Below are positions 763-11,918 of a DNA stretch of 51,766 nucleotides, piece by piece. Within the stretch, counting starts at the first letter, position 1; each line of letters starts with the position of its first letter. The stretch spans positions 1 through 51,766 of the forward strand of contig JAPCJR010000014.1 of the NCBI GenBank assembly GCA_027886865.1. The letters run 5' to 3'. Position numbers and translations under genes: made by a program. The stretch comes from Nitrososphaerota archaeon. Its GTDB lineage: Archaea > Thermoproteota > Nitrososphaeria > Nitrososphaerales > UBA183. Under the pieces are notes generated by a model that did no database searches, had not been told where the DNA came from, and worked only from the letters and a program-made list of their open reading frames with translations.

Positions 763-1791
763 TCAATCGGCGGCTCGAAAGGACCCTACCCTCTGCAACG
801 ACCTTCTCTCACTCAGACCCTCAAGACGCTCCATGAGCTTCTCGGGAAAGCTGAACTGCTCAGTGGGGATGTCGACCCGGGCGCTCACGATGCCCGGTTG
901 TAGTTTTGCCCACTCAAGGAACTCCTGAACATAGACCATCGACGACGCACTTAGCATGACGAATCCGTTTTCCGGGTCCGAATACCCAGCCCACAGGTAG
1001 CTTCCCTCAAAGTGCGACGTAATCGCGCGGTCGACCGTGCCTTTGGCCCCGTCCTTCGAATAGGCGTAGGAGAGCAATACCGGGATGAGTCCGCGCACCC
1101 GCCCAACGTTCAGGCTCGGGAGGGCGAAAATCGTGTTCTCCTTCCGCAACCTGTCGACTCGCTTCTTCACCGTCTTGGTCGAGAGCCCTAGCTCCTTAGC
1201 GACGAGGACGTAGGACTTGTGAGCTTCCTTGGAGAGCGCCCGGATTATCGCCACGTCAGTCTCCGTGAGGCGCTCAGTCTCGGATGAGGGAAGCGCCATC
1301 CTGGCCTTTGTCACCTTCTCTGCGTTTGTAATCCGCGAGATCAGCTCGACGGTCCGGGAGTACGACTCGTCGCTGTTGTACACCACGTAAATCTTCATGA
1401 CCCTCCCATAGAAATTCATCAACATGATGACGTTCTCCACAAGTTTCAGCTTGCGGATCATGTCAGCCTTGGCAGACTCCGGCTCAACGTCCACCATGAT
1501 GTCCCCCATTCTACAGGCGAAGAACGTGGGATTGATCATGAGCTGCCAACCCGACATCGCGCCCGACTCCCGCAGCCTCTTGTAGCGGTTCCACACAGTC
1601 GAATCATCGGCCCCGAGGCGTGACGCGATGGTCTTCAGGTTCGACCTGAACTGAGCGCCGGAGCCGCCAATCGTGCTTTCGGACATGAGGGCCCTGAAGA
1701 TTTTAACGTCGAGTTCGTCCATGTTCGTCTCGGGTGCCCCAGGTAATCTCGCAAGGATGCGCGTTCTATTTATCCGTCTCTTCCCTTTCAT
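763..1791 (-). CDS. Two-domain Lrp/AsnC-type transcriptional regulator
   Basis: A 342-residue protein containing two AsnC-type winged helix-turn-helix units, at about residues 27-85 (LKTIASRLGADDSTVWNRYK) and 165-225 (YVLVAKELGLSTKTVKKRVD). Each is followed by a ligand-binding or dimerisation-like segment. Ordinary Lrp proteins have one HTH, so this is a tandem-duplicated form, a layout I know from Thaumarchaeota. No obvious target gene sits beside it; it faces away from the VOC gene. An internal ATG at base 1722 (MDELDVKIF) is an alternative start that removes only a basic N-terminal tail. Confidence 0.75.
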   Translation of the reverse strand: MKGKRRINRTRILARLPGAPETNMDELDVKIFRALMSESTIGGSGAQFRSNLKTIASRLGADDSTVWNRYKRLRESGAMSGWQLMINPTFFACRMGDIMVDVEPESAKADMIRKLKLVENVIMLMNFYGRVMKIYVVYNSDESYSRTVELISRITNAEKVTKARMALPSSETERLTETDVAIIRALSKEAHKSYVLVAKELGLSTKTVKKRVDRLRKENTIFALPSLNVGRVRGLIPVLLSYAYSKDGAKGTVDRAITSHFEGSYLWAGYSDPENGFVMLSASSMVYVQEFLEWAKLQPGIVSARVDIPTEQFSFPEKLMERLEGLSERRSLQRVGSFRAAD

Positions 1792-1855
1792 CTCGTTGGT
1801 CTAAGACAGTCCTCAAGTAAGCTGCCCGCTCGGTAAATTCTGAGGAGCATCTTCA

Positions 1856-2296
1856 ATGATAAAGAAACTGACGCTGTTCGTGACCGTCAAGGACCAAGAC
1901 AAAGCCCTTGAATTCTATGGAAAGGCACTGGGATTCGAAAAGCTCGCCGACTACTCGCCCCCGGGGAATCCAAGGTGGCTGACCGTCGCACCAAAAGTCC
2001 AAAACATCGAACTGGCGCTTTACCCACCTCAGCCGGAGGACAGAGCTGTGACTTGGACGCTCGTGACGGATGACATTCACAAAGACTTCGATGAGCTAAA
2101 ATCCCGCGGGATACAGTTTAACGAAGCTGAACCTAAGGAATCTCCCTGGGGGAAGAGTGCAACGTTCAGCGATCCGGATGGCAACAAGTTTTCGCTTTAC
2201 CAGCAAAATCCTCTATACGTGGGCGCTGTGAAGGCCGGAGTCTCGTTCATCGCAAACAAGCTTCATTCCTCCAATTCTACGGACAAGCAATCCTGA
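1856..2296 (+). CDS. VOC-family (glyoxalase/bleomycin-resistance-like) protein
   Basis: A 146-residue single VOC module. The N-terminus (KLTLFVTVKDQDKALEFYGK, then LGFEKLADYSPPG) and the C-terminal SATFSDPDGNKFSLYQ stretch are diagnostic of the fold. Such proteins bind a divalent metal and act as lyases, isomerases or resistance proteins. The substrate cannot be told from sequence. The last 30 residues after the fold look unstructured. It is divergent from the Lrp-type regulator with about 60 bp between starts, which is enough for a shared control region. Confidence 0.75.
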   Translation: MIKKLTLFVTVKDQDKALEFYGKALGFEKLADYSPPGNPRWLTVAPKVQNIELALYPPQPEDRAVTWTLVTDDIHKDFDELKSRGIQFNEAEPKESPWGKSATFSDPDGNKFSLYQQNPLYVGAVKAGVSFIANKLHSSNSTDKQS

Positions 2297-2342
2297 CCCA
2301 TTCGGGAGGGACGCAAGAGGCATAACGAGGTTCAACCGTCGG

Positions 2343-2361
2343 TTCGGACAAAACTATTAAT
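2343..2361 (+). repeat. Dispersed 19-bp motif, copy A
   Basis: TTCGGACAAAACTATTAAT, identical over all 19 bases to the copy at 20166-20184. It is preceded by GTTCAACCGTCGG, which resembles the GTTCAATCAA before the copy at 18591. It lies 35 bp before an ATG at 2396 that opens a decayed reading frame. The TATTAA core could be a TATA box, but the conserved bases extend well beyond a normal archaeal promoter. Confidence 0.6.
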
Positions 2362-2395
2362 CAAGAAAAGCGCTCCTAAGCTTGAGGAAGAGACG

Positions 2396-2500
2396 ATGGT
2401 TCGTACCTACATCTGCGCCTGAAGATAGACATCGACGCAGCACAAAGGGGGTTGGAGATTCCTTACCGATTCAGCGGTGAGAGTGTAGACAGACGGAGGG
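2396..2500 (+). pseudogene. Possible frameshifted 5' fragment, polysaccharide-deacetylase-like
   Basis: An ATG at 2396 opens MVRTYICA and then hits TGA. A one-frame shift restores LKIDIDAAQRGLE, a pattern resembling the start of archaeal polysaccharide deacetylase-like proteins (LKIDIDT..RGLEEG). After that the similarity fades. The segment sits just downstream of motif copy A and is followed by the 3' end of the oppositely oriented TPR gene. The assignment rests on a very short match recalled from memory and may be wrong. Confidence 0.25.
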
Positions 2501-2529
2501 CCGGGAACGTCGCTGAAGCTAGGAAAGTG

Positions 2530-4350
2530 TCAAGGAACGAGCTCGTTCACCTTGTCCGGGTCTGCGACTACGTGAAGCGGGAATTTGGCTCCTGCCAGCC
2601 ATACTTTGTATTCCTTCATGTCGCTCGGGACCTCGCGCTCCGAGAGCATCACCCCCATCCTGACCTTGTAATCGAAGTTCGAGCTCGCCAGCTCGTTCAA
2701 TTTGTCGATGAACTCGTCGATTGTCGCCTTGGTGGCCCGTTCGCAGTAATCACAGACGATGTACTCGTCGGTGACCTTTTTGTAGGTCACCAGCTGGAAG
2801 GAGACGGTCTCCCCCAGTGTGATTGAGAACTTGTTCTCGACGCGACGGTACCCAGATTTGAGGAGGTTCGACGCTAGCCTCGCAGCCCTGTCTTCTTTGG
2901 CCGCCTGCTCACGGGTTTCCGGCACCGAGGTCTGACCTAGACCGATCCTCTGCAGCATAGCGGCGTATCGCGGGTCTGACCTCACCGCGTCGAACTCTGA
3001 ATCGATTCCCATGCGCGTCACCGAGAAATCATCGTCGCCGTACGCCCTCTCGAGCCAGTTGAAACCAACGTCTCTGTCGCCCAGCAAGAAGTGGACGCGC
3101 GCTACCCAGTAGGGACTCAGGATCTCCTTGTCGATCCCCGCCTCGACCTCGGTCATCAGCCCCCTAGATCCCTCCTTGTTGCCCATTGCCGCGTACACGA
3201 AAGCCGTCATGAGCTTTCTGTTAAGAGGCAGGAGGCCTTGCAGGAGAGGGTCCTCGACTGTCTTCAGCGCCTCAGCATACATGGAATTCCTCACGAAGGT
3301 CTGAATGAGTACGGTCTGAGGAACCACATAGTTGGGGCTCATTCGCGTGGTTCTCTCGAGTTGTTCGATTGCTTTGTCGTACTCCCCTAGATAACACAGT
3401 GAGGTTCCCAGGAACATGTTTGCAATCGCAGAGAGCGGGTCAAGCTGCACCGCTTTTTCTGCTTCCGCAAGAGCTTCCGAGAGGCGGCGGACGGACAGTA
3501 GAAGAGTGGCGTACCACATGTGGGCCTCCGCATACCCGGGATTCAGCGCGATCGCGCGCTTCAATTCCTCCTCCCCGCGAACCGGGTCGCGCTTGTAGGA
3601 GAACAGCACGGTGCCCAAGACGGCGCGAGCCTCTCCCAGGTCCGGGTCTAGCTCCAGTGCCCTCAGAGCAAATGTCAACGCTTTCGGGTAGGCAGCTGCG
3701 GGACGGACCAATCCGACCCTGGCCAGCGCGACCCAGGCGTTCGCGAGTCCGGCGTAACCGAGGGCGAACGCAGGGTCCTGCTCGACCGATTTCTCATAGA
3801 ATCTTATTGCTTCCTCGAACCCCTGCTTGCCCGCCCGGTTCCAGGAGTACCGGCCCTTCAGGTAGAGCGTATAAGCCTCCGAGCTCGAGGTCGGGGTCTT
3901 CATCAGAATGCGTCTCTCGGAGTCGAGCAGCTCTATCTTCAGGGCCTCGACGACCTTCTCCGCTATCTCGCTCTGAACGGCGAAGATATCGTCGAGTTCC
4001 TTGTCGTAAGTCCGCGTCCATAAGTGTCCCTCATCCCTTCCGTCGATGAGCTCGACGGCGATCCTGACCCTGTTGACAGCCTTCCTGACGCTCCCCTCGA
4101 CCAGGGTATCGGTGGAGAGCTCTCTAGCGATCTCGATCATCCCTTTCGTACTGCTCTTGTACTGCATGACCGAGGTCCTCGATATGACCTTGAGGCCGTC
4201 GACGGCCGACAGCGCTGTTATGAGCTCCTCAGTGATTCCGTCCGAAAAGTACTCGTTCTCCGGGTCGGAACTCATGTTCTTGAACGGGAGAATCGCTACA
4301 GTGGGCCTGCCCGATCTATAGTCAGCAGGCTTGCTTTCTCCAGAGAGCAA
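2530..4350 (-). CDS. TolB-N-like / TPR protein
   Basis: A 606-residue soluble protein. Residues 15-130 (PTVAILPFKNMSSDPENEYF, SDGITEELITALS) match the TolB N-terminal-like domain found attached to adenylate cyclases and TPR proteins. Residues about 155-440 form repeated TPR helices, with units such as DPAFALGYAGLANAW, NPGYAEAHMWYATLL and DPLSAIANMFLGTSL. The last 130 residues form a separate region with a CDYC pair. It probably works as a scaffold or signalling module; no catalytic domain is visible. The sequence gives no membrane segment. The start is the ATG at 4350; about 170 bp separate it from the YVTN gene upstream. Confidence 0.7.
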   Translation of the reverse strand: MLSGESKPADYRSGRPTVAILPFKNMSSDPENEYFSDGITEELITALSAVDGLKVISRTSVMQYKSSTKGMIEIARELSTDTLVEGSVRKAVNRVRIAVELIDGRDEGHLWTRTYDKELDDIFAVQSEIAEKVVEALKIELLDSERRILMKTPTSSSEAYTLYLKGRYSWNRAGKQGFEEAIRFYEKSVEQDPAFALGYAGLANAWVALARVGLVRPAAAYPKALTFALRALELDPDLGEARAVLGTVLFSYKRDPVRGEEELKRAIALNPGYAEAHMWYATLLLSVRRLSEALAEAEKAVQLDPLSAIANMFLGTSLCYLGEYDKAIEQLERTTRMSPNYVVPQTVLIQTFVRNSMYAEALKTVEDPLLQGLLPLNRKLMTAFVYAAMGNKEGSRGLMTEVEAGIDKEILSPYWVARVHFLLGDRDVGFNWLERAYGDDDFSVTRMGIDSEFDAVRSDPRYAAMLQRIGLGQTSVPETREQAAKEDRAARLASNLLKSGYRRVENKFSITLGETVSFQLVTYKKVTDEYIVCDYCERATKATIDEFIDKLNELASSNFDYKVRMGVMLSEREVPSDMKEYKVWLAGAKFPLHVVADPDKVNELVP

Positions 4351-4520: not shown

Positions 4521-5747
4521 CTACCTGGTCAGAGGTTTGTTCCTCTTTCTTCCCAGAGGTGAGCTCGCCACCGCAAGAATCACTCCGATCTGGACGAACA
4601 GTAGCACTATGTAGGAGACCGGGAGTGATGAGCTGGAAGCTGCGCTTGTTGTAGTAGACGGAGCGGAGGAGGTGACCTCAGTGGACGTCGAGGAGGCAAC
4701 TGAGCCGGAGACCACAAAGACCTCGCTGGAGCCATCACTCACGAACAGCTCGCCCTTACCCGAGTCGTAAGCCACGCCGTCCGCACCGCCTGTACCGTAC
4801 ACGCCGCCTAGAGTCAGGTTCCCTATGACCGCGTTTGTAGAGTCGGATATCATGTAGACGACGGCGCCTACGCCAGTGGTCGCGAGGACTTCTCCGCTGG
4901 CAGGGTCGTACGCCATGTTGTAGAGAGTAGGCCCCAAGACCAGGTTAGCCACCACTGTGTTCGTGGCGTCCGAAATCACTGTGACGTTGTTTGGAGCGGC
5001 ACCGCCGTAGTTTGTGCCGACAAACATCTCGTCTCTAGCCGCGTCATACGCCATGGTTGAAGGCCATTCCCCTACAGTCACGTTCGCAACGACCTTGTTT
5101 TCGCTGTCAGAGATTACCGATACCGTATTGGACGATATCGGGCAATAACCATTGCAGGAGTCGGAATCGGCTACGTACAACTCTCCCTTGGTTGGATCGT
5201 ACGCGATACCGGCAGGCCCGCTTCCCCCTGTCCCACTGCTCGCTATCGTAACGTTTGTGACTACGGTGTTCGTGCTATCCGAGATTACGGACACGGTGTT
5301 CGAGCCGTAGTTGGATACGAATATTTCGCCCTTGGCTGAGTCATACGCTAGACCGGCAGGCCCGCTCCCCACCTTAACGGTTGAGACTACAGCGTTGGTA
5401 CTGTCCGAGATCACGGACACGGTGTTTGAGCCGTAGTCGGCTACGAAGACCTCGCCCTTGCCCGAATCATACGCCACTTGGACGGGGTCGCTCCCCACGC
5501 TCACGTTCGCCACCACTGAGTTGGTGGCGTCGGATATCACGGCTACAGAGTTCGCGTCATATGCAGAGTCGGCTACGAAGACCTCGCCCTTGGCTGAATC
5601 GTATGCTAGGCCCCCGGGCCCGCCATGGACCGTCACGCTCGCAACCACACTCATGCTCGCTGCTCTGGCCAACGGGACCTCAGCCGAAGCAAAGACCAGA
5701 AGTAGGAGGACTGTCAGGACGACCGCTGCGCGACCTGCGAGACGCAC
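4521..5747 (-). CDS. Membrane-anchored YVTN beta-propeller surface protein
   Basis: A 408-residue exported protein. Residues 1-30 are a signal peptide (LTVLLLLVFASAEVPLARA). Seven imperfect repeats of about 43-50 residues follow, each built as AYDSGKGEVFVAD then NTVSVISDSTNTVVANV, which is the YVTN beta-propeller repeat; seven units make one closed propeller. A Ser/Thr-rich linker (SSTSTEVTSSAPSTTTSAAS) leads to a C-terminal membrane helix (YIVLLFVQIGVILAVA) and a basic tail. The layout places the propeller outside the cell. Such proteins are common in soil Thaumarchaeota; the binding partner is unknown. A TATA-like CTTAAA lies about 32 bp before the ATG. Confidence 0.85.
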   Translation of the reverse strand: MRLAGRAAVVLTVLLLLVFASAEVPLARAASMSVVASVTVHGGPGGLAYDSAKGEVFVADSAYDANSVAVISDATNSVVANVSVGSDPVQVAYDSGKGEVFVADYGSNTVSVISDSTNAVVSTVKVGSGPAGLAYDSAKGEIFVSNYGSNTVSVISDSTNTVVTNVTIASSGTGGSGPAGIAYDPTKGELYVADSDSCNGYCPISSNTVSVISDSENKVVANVTVGEWPSTMAYDAARDEMFVGTNYGGAAPNNVTVISDATNTVVANLVLGPTLYNMAYDPASGEVLATTGVGAVVYMISDSTNAVIGNLTLGGVYGTGGADGVAYDSGKGELFVSDGSSEVFVVSGSVASSTSTEVTSSAPSTTTSAASSSSLPVSYIVLLFVQIGVILAVASSPLGRKRNKPLTR

Positions 5748-5784: not shown

Positions 5785-5998
5785 GTACTTGCCGCTGCCG
5801 CCGAATTTGACCTCGTTGCTTCCTTCTTTAGCGCGGATGACCCCGCTATCAATTCCGCAGGGTCAGACCCCTCGGTTTTTTGGTGCGTTAGAGAAACCCC
5901 ACAGGCTTCCAGCCAGGGTGCATAGAGAAGGTGGGCCAGCCGAACGGGATAATCATCGAAGTTGGTGGGAACTTTAACGTCGACTGGGTCCTGAAGAG

Positions 5999-7228
5999 CT
6001 AACTATCCAGGAAGAGTAACAGAATAACAGCGGTTGGGTCTTTCAATCGTAAGGCAAAGCGCTGGGCCACCCGGAAGCGATACTGCTCGTTCTGATCCTT
6101 CTGGTCGAATATCACTGAGACGTCCAACGAATCTTCCGTGACGCCCCGCACCAGATCCATCGTATTTCCGCTCAACGATACGAGGACGCCTGTGTAGAGC
6201 ACAGCCGCCGGCCCGGGAGTAGACCCAGCAGGGAGCAACAACGGAGAGCTGTTGAACTGTACCATCGAACTAAGAAGTGTGGTGCCAGCAGGCGTTGTAG
6301 ACGTAGCAGGAGTGACTATCCCCGTCGGTAGACCAGATAGGACAGGAACTGATCCCGGGGCAGACCCCGAAGTCACTGGGGCAAATGGAGGTAAGGCACT
6401 TGTTCCATAGATACCTGCTTTGACAAGGTGACTGATCGGTTCTGCCGGCTCAATCAAAGTGTCGGGGAGTGCCTGATAGATGTCAGCGTAGGGAACAGTG
6501 TGCAGGACTAGTGCATAATTCTCGTAATGCCCCAACCCTTGGAGTGCGGAAATTCCCTGGGATACTACGTTGAGCGTGTTCTCGGCGTAACGGGGCGCCG
6601 AACCTGCATTCCCCAGGACCGATGGATGTACCGGAATGACCTGAGTAACAGGCAGCAATATGTTATTCTCGACCGATGATACTACTGGTTGCACCGGCCG
6701 GACCTTCAACAGACCGCAATCAAGGTCCAAGTTCAGGTTCCTGTCCGAGTACTGAACGTTTTCTCCAGTAAACAATGGACTGTTAACAGCCGCATTCTGG
6801 CCATTAAAGAGAACCAAATCTTCAGCCTGCGCAAGAATGTTGGCCGCTCTCAACGCCAGAGAAACTGCCGTGCTAGGCCCTCGATTGTTGGGTTGCATCT
6901 CCTCATGCTCTTCCGCTTGCACTTGCGCCGCTGACAAACGAAACGCAGTCCAATACTCTTGGATACGATTGGTCTGCGACTCGTCGACGCTAAGCGCCGA
7001 ATCGAACGCCGCACCTGCTTTCTCGGCGGCAGCTGCACTCAGCGGAACAATCACAACATTGGCTTCCACCGTAGTTTGCTTCTCGGGCACATGAACGAGT
7101 GGGAGAAATTTTGCACCCACTCTCGTCCGCTTCATCTCTTCAAGGACAGCCTGATCGAGAGCTTTCCAGACCCCATCGCTCCATTGAACCTGACCCTTTC
7201 CACGACTACTCTTGACCGTTGGGGACAT
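5999..7228 (-). CDS. Encapsulin-like (linocin M18/HK97-fold) shell protein with long insertions
   Basis: A 409-residue protein whose order of motifs follows encapsulin: an N-terminal helix (WSDGVWKALDQAVLEEMKRT), a spine-helix segment (ALRAANILAQAEDLVLFNGQ, compare the VAEFEDEVIFRG of Thermotoga), a P-domain core (NYALVLHTVPYADIYQALPD) and a C-terminal block (TMDLVRGVTEDSLDVSVIFD, QYRFRVAQRFALRLKDPTAV) matching the usual GQDLSIGY...F.F.V..PEA ending. Family 1 encapsulins have about 265-280 residues; the excess here lies mainly at residues about 150-215 and a Gly/Ser/Pro/Thr-rich insert at about 275-330. Encapsulins self-assemble into nanocompartments around cargo enzymes. No ferritin-like protein or peroxidase sits next to it, and no other phage genes are present. 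A degenerate capsid-derived protein is the alternative. Confidence 0.75.
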   Translation of the reverse strand: MSPTVKSSRGKGQVQWSDGVWKALDQAVLEEMKRTRVGAKFLPLVHVPEKQTTVEANVVIVPLSAAAAEKAGAAFDSALSVDESQTNRIQEYWTAFRLSAAQVQAEEHEEMQPNNRGPSTAVSLALRAANILAQAEDLVLFNGQNAAVNSPLFTGENVQYSDRNLNLDLDCGLLKVRPVQPVVSSVENNILLPVTQVIPVHPSVLGNAGSAPRYAENTLNVVSQGISALQGLGHYENYALVLHTVPYADIYQALPDTLIEPAEPISHLVKAGIYGTSALPPFAPVTSGSAPGSVPVLSGLPTGIVTPATSTTPAGTTLLSSMVQFNSSPLLLPAGSTPGPAAVLYTGVLVSLSGNTMDLVRGVTEDSLDVSVIFDQKDQNEQYRFRVAQRFALRLKDPTAVILLLFLDS

Positions 7229-7293
7229 CTCCGGCGAGCCTGTTGCTGGTGTTGCTATAGGCCCTTCTATTTGTCCGCGGTCGAACCGAACCT

Positions 7294-7311
7294 CTCGGAC
7301 AAAACTATCAG
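7294..7311 (+). repeat. Dispersed motif, copy B
   Basis: CTCGGACAAAACTATCAG, matching the 2343 copy at 16 of 18 positions. Here the CGGACAA (7296-7302) also pairs with TTGTCCG at 7271-7277, giving a 7-bp inverted repeat around the segment. It lies between the divergent encapsulin and AbrB-VapC genes; an ATG at 7316 in frame with the antitoxin follows directly. Confidence 0.5.
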
Positions 7312-7420
7312 TCCAATGAAATCAACAGTCGATATCCTCCCGAGGCGAGATGAACTCTATGCAGGCAAGAACACGCCACAGGTATCCTTAAGTGTAGATT
7401 CCCACTATGTGAATGGGAAA

Positions 7421-7654
7421 ATGGAGACCGTTGTCGACGAACGTGGGAGAGTGCTTATTCCTCAGGAACTGAGGCGAGAGTTAGGGCTCGAAGAGGGCAC
7501 GGTCGTAGACATCGAAAAGTCAGAAGGAGGCATAATCATGACGCCCGCCCGAAGGAAACATCTTTCGTGGAAAGAGTTGAACGGAATCAAGCCCAAGAGG
7601 ACGGCGAGACCACAATGGCCAACATCCGAAGACATCAAGAGCATCTGGGAATAG
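7421..7654 (+). CDS. vapB: AbrB-type (SpoVT/MazE-like) antitoxin
   Basis: A 77-residue protein beginning METVVDERGRVLIPQELRRE, followed by LGLEEGTVVDIEKSEGGI: the swapped-hairpin AbrB DNA-binding domain occupies the first 45 residues. The tail (PQWPTSEDIKSIWE) is the type of C-terminal extension that docks into the partner toxin's active site. It overlaps the PIN toxin gene by 40 bp, the usual arrangement of a VapBC pair, and probably represses its own operon. A TATA-like CTTAAG lies at 7387-7392. In-frame starts exist at GTG 7409 and ATG 7316; the latter would add 35 residues without known homology. Confidence 0.8.
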   Translation: METVVDERGRVLIPQELRRELGLEEGTVVDIEKSEGGIIMTPARRKHLSWKELNGIKPKRTARPQWPTSEDIKSIWE

Positions 7655-8049
7655 ACACCAACGTCCTCGTCGCATACTTGGACAAAGACCATCCGTCACA
7701 CAAGCGAACCGAAAGACTGTCGCGTGAGACGGTGGCGCTCAATCCTACGATAATCCACGAGGCGTATCATACTCTCGTCTTCAAGATGAAATGGACGCCC
7801 CATGAGGCCTCGACAGTTCTCATCGGCGCCTCCAGCGACAGGGATAATCTGTTCATCAACCAGACACTCACAACAACTAGGGTCGGCCTACACATCGCCA
7901 CTCGGCACGGTCTCGGAGGGAGAGATGCCCTCATTCTGGCGAACTTCCTGGCCGCCGGGATATCTGAACTTGTCACTCTCGATGAAGAGTTGATCAATCT
8001 CAAGAGCGTGGCTTACGGAAGGCGGACTATGTCAATCCGGCCCCTCTAG
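7615..8049 (+). CDS. vapC: VapC-type PIN-domain ribonuclease toxin
   Basis: A 144-residue PIN protein starting MANIRRHQ. The acidic active-site residues are visible: Asp in LGIDTNVLVAYLD, Glu in IIHEAYHTL, Asp in LGGRDALILANFL and Asp in LVTLDEEL. PIN toxins cut RNA with Mg2+ and are held inactive by the cognate antitoxin, here the AbrB-type protein encoded just upstream with overlap. The ATG at 7615 is chosen because the conserved IDTNVL strand follows after 12 residues. Length and all four acidic positions look intact, so the toxin is likely functional. Confidence 0.85.
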   Translation: MANIRRHQEHLGIDTNVLVAYLDKDHPSHKRTERLSRETVALNPTIIHEAYHTLVFKMKWTPHEASTVLIGASSDRDNLFINQTLTTTRVGLHIATRHGLGGRDALILANFLAAGISELVTLDEELINLKSVAYGRRTMSIRPL

Positions 8050-8116
8050 TCGCTCACCAGACGTACTGGCCTTATTATCCGTCTATACCAAACATGATTG
8101 AAGGCTATCGCCGCTT

Positions 8117-8307
8117 TCAGGTACGTTCGCCCGCGAGTTTCGGGTCGATTCGCTTGAGCCACGGAACCTTGTCGAATTCCATGTCCGCTGAGACTATCTC
8201 GTCCAGGCCGTTCCTCTTCATCACGGCTGCGTGGACGCAATCGTAGGGGCTAATCCTCGACGCGGCATAGATCGCTGCAGCTTCCTGGGCGTCCGTCGGG
8301 TTCAGCC
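8117..8307 (-). pseudogene. 3' remnant of a second VapC-type PIN gene
   Basis: Reading the minus strand from about 8307 to the TGA at 8117-8119 gives LNPTDAQEAAAIYAASR, ISPYDCVHAAVMKRNGLDEI and VSADMEFDKVPWLKRIDP. This is the C-terminal half of a PIN toxin with its third and fourth acidic positions (YD and SAD). The N-terminal half with the first Asp and Glu is absent, because the coding sequence runs directly into the alpha/beta hydrolase gene on the same strand. No antitoxin gene accompanies it. It is probably the stump left by a deletion or insertion that brought the hydrolase operon here. Confidence 0.65.
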
Positions 8308-9078
8308 CGAGCTTGCGAAGTCGCGGATGAGTCTGAGAACCTCTTCGGGCTTCTCGATCTGCGGAAAATGTCCTGCTTCCGTGATGACCTCCATGCGCGA
8401 CCCGGGGATGCTCTCGGCAAAGCGACGGCCGTAATCGACGTCCACGACCTTGTCGCTAGCGCCCCAGAGCAGGAGCACCGGCACGTCGACCGCGGAGAGG
8501 CGAGCCCTCAGCGTGGGGTCGTGCATGTACGGTTGGCTGGCGTAGGCTATCAGAGCCTTCGAGTTGGCAGCCATCATGACCAGCCCTTCAGGACCCAGAT
8601 TGGCAAAGGGAGACTTCTTTGGGTCATAGAAGGACAGGGCCGCCCTCTTCTCCGGAGGAACATCTGCGGGGTTTACGATCTTCTTGTCTTCTGACCCTGT
8701 ATCGATGCCGACAGCGTTGAGGAGAATTACAGACGAAATCCGCGGGGAGCGCCTCAGCGCTATCTCCGACGCAATCCATCCGCCTATCGAGTTGCCAACG
8801 ACGACCACGTCTCGCACGTCCATGCGCTCAAGCAGAGCGAGATAAGCCAAGGCGACATCGTCGATGCGGCGGAACCAGTCCGGTCTGGAAGAGCCTGCGA
8901 AGCCAGGGAGGGTCGGTGCTATCGCCCTTTCTTCCTTCGATATCGCGCCGGCCAGGCCAGCGATTGACGCCGGGCCTGCGCCTCCGTGGAGGAGCAAGAA
9001 CGCGCGGCCCTTTCCCCGGTCATCGACCGAGAGTTCCAGACTTTCCGAGAACAGTTTGACCGTCTTCATGGTGCTCAT
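8302..9078 (-). CDS. Alpha/beta-fold hydrolase
   Basis: A 258-residue alpha/beta hydrolase with a complete catalytic triad: nucleophile Ser in VVVGNSIGGW, acid Asp in LLWGASDKVVDVD and His in TEAGHFPQIEKP. The oxyanion-hole LLHGGAGPAS motif lies near residue 30. Family members cleave esters, C-C bonds or lactones; the substrate is not evident. It follows the ArsR-type gene with an 11-bp gap, so the regulator probably controls its expression. Its 3' end abuts the PIN remnant, and the last residues overlap the remnant's open frame. Confidence 0.8.
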   Translation of the reverse strand: MSTMKTVKLFSESLELSVDDRGKGRAFLLLHGGAGPASIAGLAGAISKEERAIAPTLPGFAGSSRPDWFRRIDDVALAYLALLERMDVRDVVVVGNSIGGWIASEIALRRSPRISSVILLNAVGIDTGSEDKKIVNPADVPPEKRAALSFYDPKKSPFANLGPEGLVMMAANSKALIAYASQPYMHDPTLRARLSAVDVPVLLLWGASDKVVDVDYGRRFAESIPGSRMEVITEAGHFPQIEKPEEVLRLIRDFASSG

Positions 9079-9089
9079 CTCAATCTACC

Positions 9090-9395
9090 TCAGAGAGGCT
9101 CCCGCGCGCTCAGTACCGCCTTGAGCAGGCCGGGAAACCTCGCATTCAGGTCCTTCTCCCTCAGGGTGGAGATGCGACGCGTCCCCTCTAACCTCGTCCG
9201 GGTTATCCCGGCTTCCCTTAAGACCCTAAAATGATGCGACATCGTGGACTTTGTGAGCTGGCCCATCTCACCGCAAGTCCTCTCTTTGCCGTTCTGAAGA
9301 GACCTCACTATCTGCAGCCGGGCAGGGTCGCAGAGCGCGTTCAAGACACCCGTAAGCGTGATTGCCTCCGTCTCGGGATGCTGAAGAGGCCTCAT
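9090..9395 (-). CDS. ArsR-family winged-helix regulator
   Basis: A 101-residue winged-helix protein. The core reads LCDPARLQIVRSLQNG, then GEMGQLTKSTMSHHFRVLRE as recognition region, then the wing (ARLEGTRR-like TRLEGTRRISTL). The metal-binding ELCVCDL motif of metal sensors is replaced by RTCGEMGQ with a single Cys, so it is probably not a classical metal sensor. The ATG at 9395 is preferred over upstream starts because a TATA box lies 24-31 bp before it. It is the first gene of an operon with the alpha/beta hydrolase, and an inverted repeat over its promoter suggests autoregulation. Confidence 0.8.
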   Translation of the reverse strand: MRPLQHPETEAITLTGVLNALCDPARLQIVRSLQNGKERTCGEMGQLTKSTMSHHFRVLREAGITRTRLEGTRRISTLREKDLNARFPGLLKAVLSAREPL

Positions 9396-9417
9396 GGTCT
9401 TTGTGACCGGAAGGTCG

Positions 9418-9456
9418 TTATTTAAATGTTCGATAGTTCGATTATAATGGAACATT
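9418..9456 (-). promoter_or_regulatory. Promoter and palindromic operator of the ArsR operon
   Basis: On the minus strand a TATA-like TTTAAATA occupies about 9419-9426, 24-31 bp before the ATG at 9395. It overlaps an inverted repeat with arms AATGTTC (9425-9431) and GAACATT (9450-9456) separated by 18 bp; two TTCGAT/AGTTCGAT half-repeats lie inside. A dyad over the TATA box is where an ArsR dimer would block TBP. Binding has not been shown. Confidence 0.55.
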
Positions 9457-9491
9457 CAATTATCCCTAAGCATCCACGTTTCCCGTTCATC

Positions 9492-9726
9492 ATGACCAGG
9501 TCTCGGCCATCAGGCAGCTCGCAGAGGGAGAGGCTGGAACTGATGGCGGAGCAATCTGTATCCTATGTCATCACTGACTACAGGTCCAAGACACAAGCGA
9601 TAGAGAGTGAAACCGGTCGAGCTTCTGGAATTAGGTACCAGATACGACGAAGAAAGGCACGTCGAGCTTCTGCTGGATGGCATTACCTCCACCTTCAACC
9701 GTTCGGCATCGATAAACTTGCCTTGA
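9492..9726 (+). pseudogene. Small frameshifted gene of unknown family
   Basis: From the ATG at 9492 the frame reads SGSSQRERLELMAEQSVSYV and then ITDYRSKTQAIE. Near 9600 it loses its protein-like character, while the neighbouring frame continues as RVKPVELLELGTRYDEERHV and ELLLDGITSTFNRSASINLP up to a TGA at 9724. Joining the two halves gives a plausible charged protein of about 78 residues. I do not recognise the family. It could be one decayed gene or a sequencing error. It shares the intergenic region with the ArsR operator. Confidence 0.35.
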
Positions 9727-9839
9727 AGGAGACTCCTACGTACCCGAGCTAGCTACAGGCCTAGCCGTCTCGGGCTTGACCGCCAATTGCACATTCATCA
9801 TCATCGTTCTTAACCAACCTCACCTTTTGTCCCAAAGCC

Positions 9840-10142
9840 ATGACGCCGAAGACTAGGGTCGGAGCTGCCACATGGGTTGCGGCCGTAGCCTTGTTCTTTG
9901 TTGCTCTGATGGGGTCCGCTCTGTTTGTGGGATTCTTAACTTTGGCCAGTCCTTGGATCTATCAAAACTATCCCGTATTGTACTTCCTCTTCGCAGCAGC
10001 TCTGTTCATTGGATTGATGTTACTCAGATCATATCGCAACCCTCCACCGAAACGAAATGAAGTTCAACCAACGCTCACTAAGAGACTCTCTCGTAAGTTG
10101 ATGGACCATTCCTCAAGATTTTCGAGTGTGAATCAATCATGA
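9840..10142 (+). CDS. Small two-helix membrane protein
   Basis: A 100-residue protein with two hydrophobic segments: WVAAVALFFVALMGSALFVG (about residues 12-35) and VLYFLFAAALFIGLMLL (about 46-62). A basic cytoplasmic tail (RSYRNPPPKRNE) follows, so the positive-inside rule puts the C-terminus in the cytoplasm. No family is recognised. Its stop overlaps the start of the downstream acetyltransferase by four bases (ATGA), so the two are translationally coupled. Confidence 0.6.
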   Translation: MTPKTRVGAATWVAAVALFFVALMGSALFVGFLTLASPWIYQNYPVLYFLFAAALFIGLMLLRSYRNPPPKRNEVQPTLTKRLSRKLMDHSSRFSSVNQS

Positions 10143-10684
10143 ACACCGACGTCCGAGTTTCAATCCGTCCATATGGAGAGGGAGACCTTTGGATATTGGA
10201 GAGGACGATGGGGGACCCGGCTCAAACGACATATCTCAACGGGCCTGAAACTGCGGAGAAAATCGAGAAGCGTCATAGGAAATACCTTGCACTGTCTGCT
10301 GACTCGCATGCCGGGTGCATGTTCACGGTCCTGGCAGGCTCTGACAGTGCCCCCGCAGGCAATGTCGGATATTGGGAGAGCGAGTGGAAAGGACAGAAGG
10401 GTTGGGAGGTGGGATGGCTCGTGATACCTGAGTTTCAAGGGCGTGGCGTCGCAACTGCTGCGACTAAACTCGTGATAGAGTCGCTTGCAAGGCTTCAGGG
10501 CTATAGATTCGTCTTTGCCTTTCCCTCGGTGGATAATCGCCCGTCCAATGCCGTCTGCAGAAAACTCGGGTTCGCTTTGATCGGGGATGTAATCAGCGAG
10601 TATCCGCCCGATAGCGGGCGCTCATTGCACGTCAATGTTTGGAAACTTGCCCTTCCGGTCAGCGGAATAGAAAACTCAGTCTGA
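10139..10684 (+). CDS. GNAT acetyltransferase, RimJ/RimL-like
   Basis: A 181-residue GNAT protein. The start VSIRPYGEGDLWILERTMGD, the GWLVIPEFQGRGVATAA acetyl-CoA pyrophosphate-binding loop and PSNAVCRKLGFALIGD are the usual order for acetyltransferases acting on protein N-termini, antibiotics or small amines. The substrate is unknown. The gene overlaps the upstream membrane-protein gene by ATGA. About 170 bp follow without a gene before the next coding region on the other strand. Confidence 0.8.
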   Translation: MNTDVRVSIRPYGEGDLWILERTMGDPAQTTYLNGPETAEKIEKRHRKYLALSADSHAGCMFTVLAGSDSAPAGNVGYWESEWKGQKGWEVGWLVIPEFQGRGVATAATKLVIESLARLQGYRFVFAFPSVDNRPSNAVCRKLGFALIGDVISEYPPDSGRSLHVNVWKLALPVSGIENSV

Positions 10685-10851
10685 GATTAAGCTGGAGACC
10701 GTTGAAGAAAATCCTGAAGGAAACCTGACCCTGTCTACCAATTCAATACGGATACCTACTCCTTTCGTCGGTTTCGCATCCATTGGGCAGCCCTGACTCC
10801 AGACAGCTCTCCGCGAGGACAGATCGAACGGGGGTACCGTGGGCGAGAGCC

Positions 10852-11676
10852 CTACCCCACGTCCATTGTGACGCCGTCGCGCGTGTACCCGGGGGCAACC
10901 GCGGTCATCTTGACGCGCCCGGCCTTGCTTCCTATCCTCGCTCTTGTGGTCCCCCAGCTCGAGCCCGCCGGTATCCAGATTTCACTCGGGGGCACCATCT
11001 CCATGTCAGAGGTCATGACGCTGACCAGGAGGCCCGAGGACCCGGCGGGACAGCTTATTGACGCGCCCAACTCCACCTCGCTCCCGCTCCTCAGCGCCGC
11101 TCCCTCGACGACCAGGGAGAGCACCGGGTATCTCCTTACCTCAAGGGTCAGGTCGGAGAACCTTCCCTTCGGGTCTCCGGGGAGCCATGCGCGTCTGGTG
11201 TACTTCTTGCTGTCTCTGGCGAAGACTCGAAGGGTGCCCTGCGCTGGCAACCCTTCGCCGACGACATCCCCATCCGAGACCACGGAGACCGTCGAGCTGC
11301 TTGGAGCAATCCAGGAAAGCGTCACCTGCTGGCAAGACGAGGTAACGCAGAGCGGATAATCACCGTCCGCCTCGAACGCGACCCCTGAATCGTCCTCCAC
11401 TTCGGCGACGCCGAAACCTACTACGTCCTTTCCTAAAAAACCCACGACGGGTGGCGACAACAGGTCTGCGGCAGTCAGCTCTATGGTCTCGACCACAGAC
11501 CCACCAGCACCAAAGAGTTCGATAGCGGTCTTCTCCTCCGCTGCGGCGTCCCATCTCAGAAGAAATCTTCCTGCGCTGTCCGTGGTCGAAGAATCCAACA
11601 CGCGCCCGTTTGCCCGCGCCTGCACGACGTGACCCCTGAGCTCCTTCCTCGATGCGATGACCTTCAGCCTTCCCAT
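10852..11676 (-). CDS. Beta-rich protein with Ig/carboxypeptidase-regulatory-like repeats
   Basis: A protein of about 274 residues with no strong family match. The first 70 residues (LRGHVVQARANGRVLDSSTT, DSAGRFLLRWDA) look like a carboxypeptidase-regulatory or bacterial Ig-like domain. The middle has a Cys pair (CVTSSC) and the end (IWIPAGSSWGTTRARIGSKA) resembles another beta-sandwich. There is no signal peptide in the assigned frame, which is odd for an Ig-like protein. The ATG at 11676 is chosen; an earlier start at 11712 would add 12 residues. Function unknown. Confidence 0.5.
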   Translation of the reverse strand: MGRLKVIASRKELRGHVVQARANGRVLDSSTTDSAGRFLLRWDAAAEEKTAIELFGAGGSVVETIELTAADLLSPPVVGFLGKDVVGFGVAEVEDDSGVAFEADGDYPLCVTSSCQQVTLSWIAPSSSTVSVVSDGDVVGEGLPAQGTLRVFARDSKKYTRRAWLPGDPKGRFSDLTLEVRRYPVLSLVVEGAALRSGSEVELGASISCPAGSSGLLVSVMTSDMEMVPPSEIWIPAGSSWGTTRARIGSKAGRVKMTAVAPGYTRDGVTMDVG

Positions 11677-11918
11677 GACGTGTCTAGTGGTGCCCGCTGC
11701 TACCGGTTCCAACGACGAGACTCGATTCCGCGGGAAGAATAGTGTTTCCTATTGAAGAGAATCACTCGAACCGAGCAACTCGATTCCGACTAGCTAGGTG
11801 GGCTTTGGAATCGAAAGCCATTATTCGTATCTTACTTTACATATTATACGGATTAGTAATATCGGAATGCTTCTTTCAGCACCCCTTATCTACAGAAGCG
11901 GGGCCGAGCACAAAACTC

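Follow-up and report, generated by a model that had tools for sequence, protein, structure and literature searches.

The window analysed here is the whole stretch of 51,766 nucleotides from a Nitrososphaerota archaeon (contig JAPCJR010000014.1, assembly GCA_027886865.1), in which an initial annotation, made from the sequence alone, had noticed a gene for an encapsulin-like shell protein with long insertions and no usual cargo gene beside it. This gene lies at positions 5999 to 7228 and is an exact open reading frame (ORF) for 409 amino acids. Its product matches the Pfam family PF04454, Linocin_M18, with 45.9 bits against a curated cut-off of 24.3, and its structure model shows the HK97 fold, on which the initial annotation had made the shell proposal depend. 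The gene and the segments of its product are listed below, the inserts being defined against one classical encapsulin of 269 amino acids from Halochromatium (L018), with extra stretches of at least 9 residues counted.

Positions 5999 to 7228, minus strand: ATG-initiated ORF of 409 amino acids, encapsulin-like shell protein with predicted HK97 fold
Positions 7124 to 7177, minus strand: N-terminal helix, residues 18-35, from DSSP on the model
Positions 7034 to 7060, minus strand: small insert, residues 57-65, without counterpart in L018
Positions 6872 to 6907, minus strand: insert of 12 amino acids ahead of the long (spine) helix, residues 108-119, from the alignment with L018
Positions 6677 to 6760, minus strand: insert, residues 157-184, without counterpart in L018
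Positions 6584 to 6637, minus strand: insert, residues 198-215, without counterpart in L018
Positions 6194 to 6394, minus strand: hypervariable insert rich in Gly, Ala, Ser, Pro and Thr, residues 279-345, from the alignment with L018 and a 42-row alignment of relatives

Encapsulins rank above phage capsids among the structural matches of the model in VIA-align, and the matches to full-length shells cover residues 6-409. The model also has a trait of family 1 encapsulins, namely an N-terminal helix in place of an N-arm; in that family, according to two papers, the helix is part of the cleft for the cargo peptide (PMC11202242, PMC8346489). The window protein is thus predicted to keep the fold and the Pfam family of known encapsulins, and on the basis of the model we read it with high confidence as an encapsulin-like HK97-fold shell protein. 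Its length exceeds that of L018 by 140 residues and it carries five inserts of at least 9 residues, so that the unusual insertions noticed at the outset are real. The largest comprises 67 residues, 67% of them Gly, Ala, Ser, Pro or Thr, which agrees with the composition first described for it; one detail calls for correction, since with pLDDT values of 71-90 in blocks of ten the model does not show this insert as plainly disordered. In the 42-row alignment the segment between positions 281 and 344 varies from 7 to 107 residues, with 64% Ala, Gly, Ser, Pro or Thr and 4% charged residues, and the mean majority identity falls from 0.69-0.78 in the core blocks to 0.29 in the stretch 282-343. The insert ahead of the spine helix measures 9 to 54 residues in the relatives of the same alignment (median 33). 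Of the 120 best database matches introduced below, 78 could be parsed for this insert, and 31 of these have at least four histidines in it. The shell protein of a Myxococcales contig (L006, positions 1754-3340) has 528 amino acids, its N-terminus being rich in His and its hypervariable insert containing a Gly-rich, repeat-like stretch; the end of this contig looks by eye like what we take to be adapter-derived sequence.

Encapsulins are known as containers for enzymes that serve in iron storage, in peroxide stress and in the metabolism of small molecules, and classical encapsulin cargo enters by a short C-terminal targeting peptide. How does the window protein relate to these systems? A search of 5.8 billion proteins, in which 7997 candidates were scored, returned 179 proteins at E<=1e-3, the window's own among them; in the best 120 of the 179, the nearest other homologue is 88% identical over its full length, and one match, P0008, is a protein of a Nitrososphaerales archaeon. 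Given these homologues, the gene is conserved and not a chance ORF. The protein shares with the family 1 encapsulins, such as EncA of Myxococcus xanthus and the encapsulin of Thermotoga maritima, the predicted HK97 fold, the N-terminal helix, the Pfam family and the overall core. It differs from them in its length and five inserts, in its own branch on the tree, in the lack of any ferritin-like or peroxidase cargo found next to its gene, and in scoring 62 bits with the NCBIfam model for family 1, NF041155 (encap_f1), the curated cut-off of which is 100. All nine other relatives tested, including that encoded on a Nitrosospira plasmid, also stay below this cut-off (38.5-91.9 bits), in contrast to the 246 bits of the classical L018. 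Family 4, the A-domain encapsulins, offers the likeness of archaeal, encapsulin-related proteins, but in these the HK97 fold is truncated to about 100 residues (PMC8346489), unlike the full fold predicted for our 409 residues; family 2 encapsulins resemble the window protein as HK97-fold shells with extra inserted segments. Both assignments were set aside by length and structure ranking.

The separate branch emerges from a tree of 61 rows, comprising the window protein, 50 database relatives, eight of the bacterial loci described below and two classical encapsulins (the Nitrosospira protein was not included). Fifty-nine rows split from the two classical ones with support of 100/100, even if the root is uncertain because the latter stand on very long branches; with this reservation on rooting, the window protein lies in the same clade as bacterial shell proteins whose genes are linked to Tc toxin genes. 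Within the clade it falls in a group of 32 rows (100/100) together with P0008. The bacterial members belong to cyanobacteria, Halochromatium and metagenome-assembled genomes (MAGs) of Desulfuromonadales, Myxococcales and Acidobacteriaceae, to which tblastn adds the similar gene of the Nitrosospira plasmid, outside the tree. Most bacterial relatives are 25-35% identical to the window protein; L006 reaches 63%, over a short C-terminal piece only. The undescribed archaeal nanocompartment type that had been suggested initially is therefore partly supported: a separate long-loop clade and the silence of the literature considered below make an undescribed branch plausible, whereas the word archaeal is too narrow for a clade with bacterial members.

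This clade is rare in the genomes sampled, which cover the respective groups in part. The query genome was the only positive among 147 genomes of the Halochromatium order and 277 of the phylum of the Desulfuromonadales MAG. In the phyla of the Myxococcales and Acidobacteriaceae MAGs, three of 329 and three of 347 genomes were positive, in each case the query genome plus two weak matches, one of the former being by eye a classical-looking encapsulin. A search with the Nitrosospira protein returned itself alone. Among plasmids, the window protein matched one record and the Halochromatium protein three. Two Ruegeria plasmids (L088 and L089) were considered as loci of the clade and set aside as carrying encapsulins of another type; their neighbours differ, and within 10 kb no Tc gene is annotated. 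On both, an annotated family 1 encapsulin at about 10001-10880 is preceded by an adenylate cyclase-domain protein and followed by a DUF3237 protein, after which L088 has an annotated FAD-dependent oxidoreductase.

A contig scan with the window protein had found six loci, all bacterial. The nine bacterial loci that we compare come from eight genomes, namely L001-L006 (L001 and L004 belong to one MAG), two further cyanobacterial genomes (L029 and L030) and the Nitrosospira plasmid. The gene that follows the shell gene is TcA-like in six of them (L001, L003, L005, L029, L030 and Nitrosospira), and in L004 and L006, where the contig ends early, a 125-residue N-terminal domain alone is visible; the gap between the two genes is 81-170 bp in these eight loci. 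A TcA-like or domain-bearing gene thus lies directly downstream of the shell gene in eight of the nine loci, and none does so in the window. Upstream, TcB/TcC- or Rhs-like genes are present in four (L001, L003, L029 and, with one small gene between, Nitrosospira), transposase-like genes are recognisable by eye in L004 and L005, and L002, L006 and L030 show other genes or too little sequence. In Halochromatium glycolicum, the shell gene is flanked by the genes for a protein of 2457 amino acids with SpvB, TcdB-middle and RHS matches and one of 2802 amino acids with the C-terminal TcB-binding domain of TcA. The same organism carries, besides this Tc-linked gene, the classical family 1 encapsulin L018 (positions 1447-2256 of contig G003:C20). 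The TcA-like protein of the cyanobacterial L001 (positions 5826-11865) combines WD40-like repeats with a laminin-G/concanavalin-like domain. The small gene of the Nitrosospira plasmid (L087, positions 4788-5399), which separates the TcB/TcC-like gene from the shell gene, encodes a hypothetical protein of 203 amino acids that could be an immunity protein or a chaperone.

The 125-residue domain, which we call the N-domain, begins the large downstream protein and is present in seven of the nine loci. In 291 genomes of one cyanobacterial order, it was found solely in the three that have the shell gene, while TcA was found in 27; the shell-gene search in these genomes used one cyanobacterial protein as query, so that distant copies may have been missed. 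As controls, 16 of 36 TcA matches were retrieved, 13 of them with the upstream TcB/TcC-like gene inside the retrieved piece; the start of TcA may have been missed in L074, L076 and L079, where that gene falls outside it. The search for the N-domain in whole genomes is free of this gap.

The surroundings of the archaeal gene are of another kind and agree with the initial annotation, which had named a YVTN surface protein and a VapBC pair as its neighbours; Pfam and NCBIfam assign them as follows.

Positions 4521 to 5747, minus strand: YVTN/NHL beta-propeller protein, 251 bp downstream of the shell gene
Positions 7430 to 7555, plus strand: MazE/AbrB-type antitoxin-like domain (PF04014, 4.5e-9), in an ORF that ends at 7654
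Positions 7567 to 8049, plus strand: PIN-domain (VapC-like) protein (PF01850, 2e-8)

The propeller protein has hydrophobic segments, by eye, at both its N- and C-terminus. No ferritin-like or DyP family matched in Pfam among the 12 neighbouring ORFs of the window, as had been noted from the beginning, and no cargo gene with a C-terminal targeting peptide was found beside the shell gene. A loose targeting-peptide pattern, applied to the C-termini of frames of at least 60 amino acids in the window, picked out seven short frames (62-109 amino acids) and no credible gene. Neither TcA nor TcB/TcC has a match in the window (tblastn, E<=1e-4), and the profile of the N-domain scores no better than chance there; hence it is the relatives that show the linkage to Tc genes. 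An orc1/cdc6 protein, the small subunit of DNA polymerase II (PolD) and aRF-1 are also encoded, and the window looks like a piece of archaeal chromosome. A 286-amino acid ORF on the minus strand (positions 10852-11712) matches no Pfam family; it was considered as a relative of the TcA N-terminus, through a carboxypeptidase-regulatory-like segment, and rejected, the E-value with a home-made profile (0.057) being too weak.

These observations create a puzzle: How does an archaeal shell gene without any recognisable partner belong with bacterial genes that mostly adjoin those of a toxin? The explanation that we favour, and consider reasonably probable, is that the window protein is a divergent, long-loop shell related to family 1, whose clade attaches a large partner by a folded N-terminal domain; our confidence in the unusual partner itself is moderate. 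The subunits would self-assemble into a closed shell, with the hypervariable inserts placed on exposed or pore-proximal loops, where they might decide what the shell meets. Cargo or partner would be held by the folded N-terminal domain of a very large protein, TcA-like in bacteria, which would do the work of the short C-terminal peptide that targets classical cargo. The archaeal member of the clade would then have retained the shell, and its partner, rather than adjoining the shell gene, would be encoded elsewhere or have been replaced. A stronger version, in which the bacterial shell is physically part of a Tc-type machine, appears rather unlikely to us: pentamers of TcA would dock by their five N-domains on the five-fold vertices, producing a protein container that bears injector channels. 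TcA is described as a homopentamer in PMC7861375, and the Tc literature gives the stoichiometry as 5:1:1 in Photorhabdus and as 4:1:1 in a toxin of Xenorhabdus.

Several observations weigh against a partner of this kind. The argument relies on relatives that are mostly 25-35% identical to the window protein, and one of them, the Acidobacteriaceae locus L002, lacks any Tc-like match in the 1.6 kb before its shell gene and the 0.7 kb after it, has no N-domain in its genome, and is placed on the tree nearer to the window's group than the Tc-linked rows of cyanobacteria and Halochromatium. Two of the eight large proteins with the N-domain (P0125 and P0130) have no TcA match and carry Peptidase_C70 or DUF2272 instead. 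The TcA of Nitrosospira lacks the N-domain, which is therefore not obligatory. Moreover, the model of this domain resembles carbohydrate-binding and Ig-like beta-sandwiches, so that its ligand may be a glycan rather than the shell. Finally, N-domain labels cluster on the tree no better than shuffled ones (2 changes, reached in 130 of 500 shuffles). As the clade is drawn, members linked to Tc genes or to the domain are found close to its base, and L006 is in the group adjoining that of the window. Put simply, the clade might have become associated with such large partners long ago, and the archaeal line might have lost or moved them; independent gains would fit the tree as well.

One alternative, which we regard as possible, if somewhat unlikely, is that the shell gene is a hitchhiker on mobile bacterial Tc loci and that the N-domain of TcA is a glycan-binding receptor module without contact to the shell. 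What speaks against this reading is the one-to-one occurrence of N-domain and shell gene in the 291 cyanobacterial genomes, against 27 with TcA, as well as the constant order and short gap in contigs of cyanobacteria, Halochromatium, Desulfuromonadales and Myxococcales. That the window protein is an ordinary family 1 encapsulin, with decorative loops and with a ferritin-like or peroxidase cargo carrying a normal targeting peptide elsewhere in the genome, we find doubtful: the predicted fold, the Pfam family and the N-terminal helix are indeed shared, and both encapsulin types are possible in one cell because Halochromatium has them, but the encap_f1 scores, the branch of its own and the want of a credible targeting-peptide gene among the window frames argue to the contrary. 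The neighbouring propeller protein, of surface type and in the same orientation, invites the idea of an HK97-fold protein that makes no closed shells and forms patches or fibres, perhaps on the cell surface; the database relative P0110, with a C-terminal extension that appears Ig-like by eye and has no Pfam hit, would suit it. Since the core is well conserved and the shell protein has by eye no hydrophobic, signal-like start, this seems very unlikely. To a major capsid protein of a virus or decayed provirus we give hardly any credence. The predicted HK97 fold would allow it, and Foldseek finds viral capsid models with E-values down to 1.2e-11 (TM-score by query up to 0.50 in the best 50 rows), yet encapsulins precede phage capsids in VIA-align, no PHROGs family appears at E<=1, and neither 50,697 phage records nor two scans of viral contigs gave a match, so that homologues in phage or viral collections were not found by sequence. 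The archaeal replication and translation genes of the window point the same way; no portal, terminase or tail gene stood out in the ORF lists, which were not searched for them systematically.

Returning to a shell with a large, folded-domain partner, the bacterial genes of this clade mostly adjoin TcA-like genes, and four also have TcB/TcC-like genes upstream, a likeness to the Tc (ABC) toxin complexes; the window differs in having no detectable Tc gene, and a shell gene at the side of Tc genes was not found in the open-licence literature searched. That literature yielded nothing on encapsulins together with Tc or insecticidal toxins, nor on encapsulins together with Nitrososphaer-, nor on encapsulins, archaea, HK97 and Thaumarchaeota in combination. 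The words toxin, Rhs and insecticidal are absent from the main text of a large encapsulin survey, the minor operon types of which are in a supplementary figure (PMC8346489), and encapsulin, linocin and capsid are absent from the available text of a survey of Tc toxins (PMC7861908). If true, a tie between this shell clade and Tc-type injection toxins would mean that the fold serves a new purpose, and it might connect virus capsids with toxin delivery. For orphan archaeal encapsulins, it would offer a testable guess besides the short tail peptide, namely a large partner that docks by a folded domain at its N-terminus.
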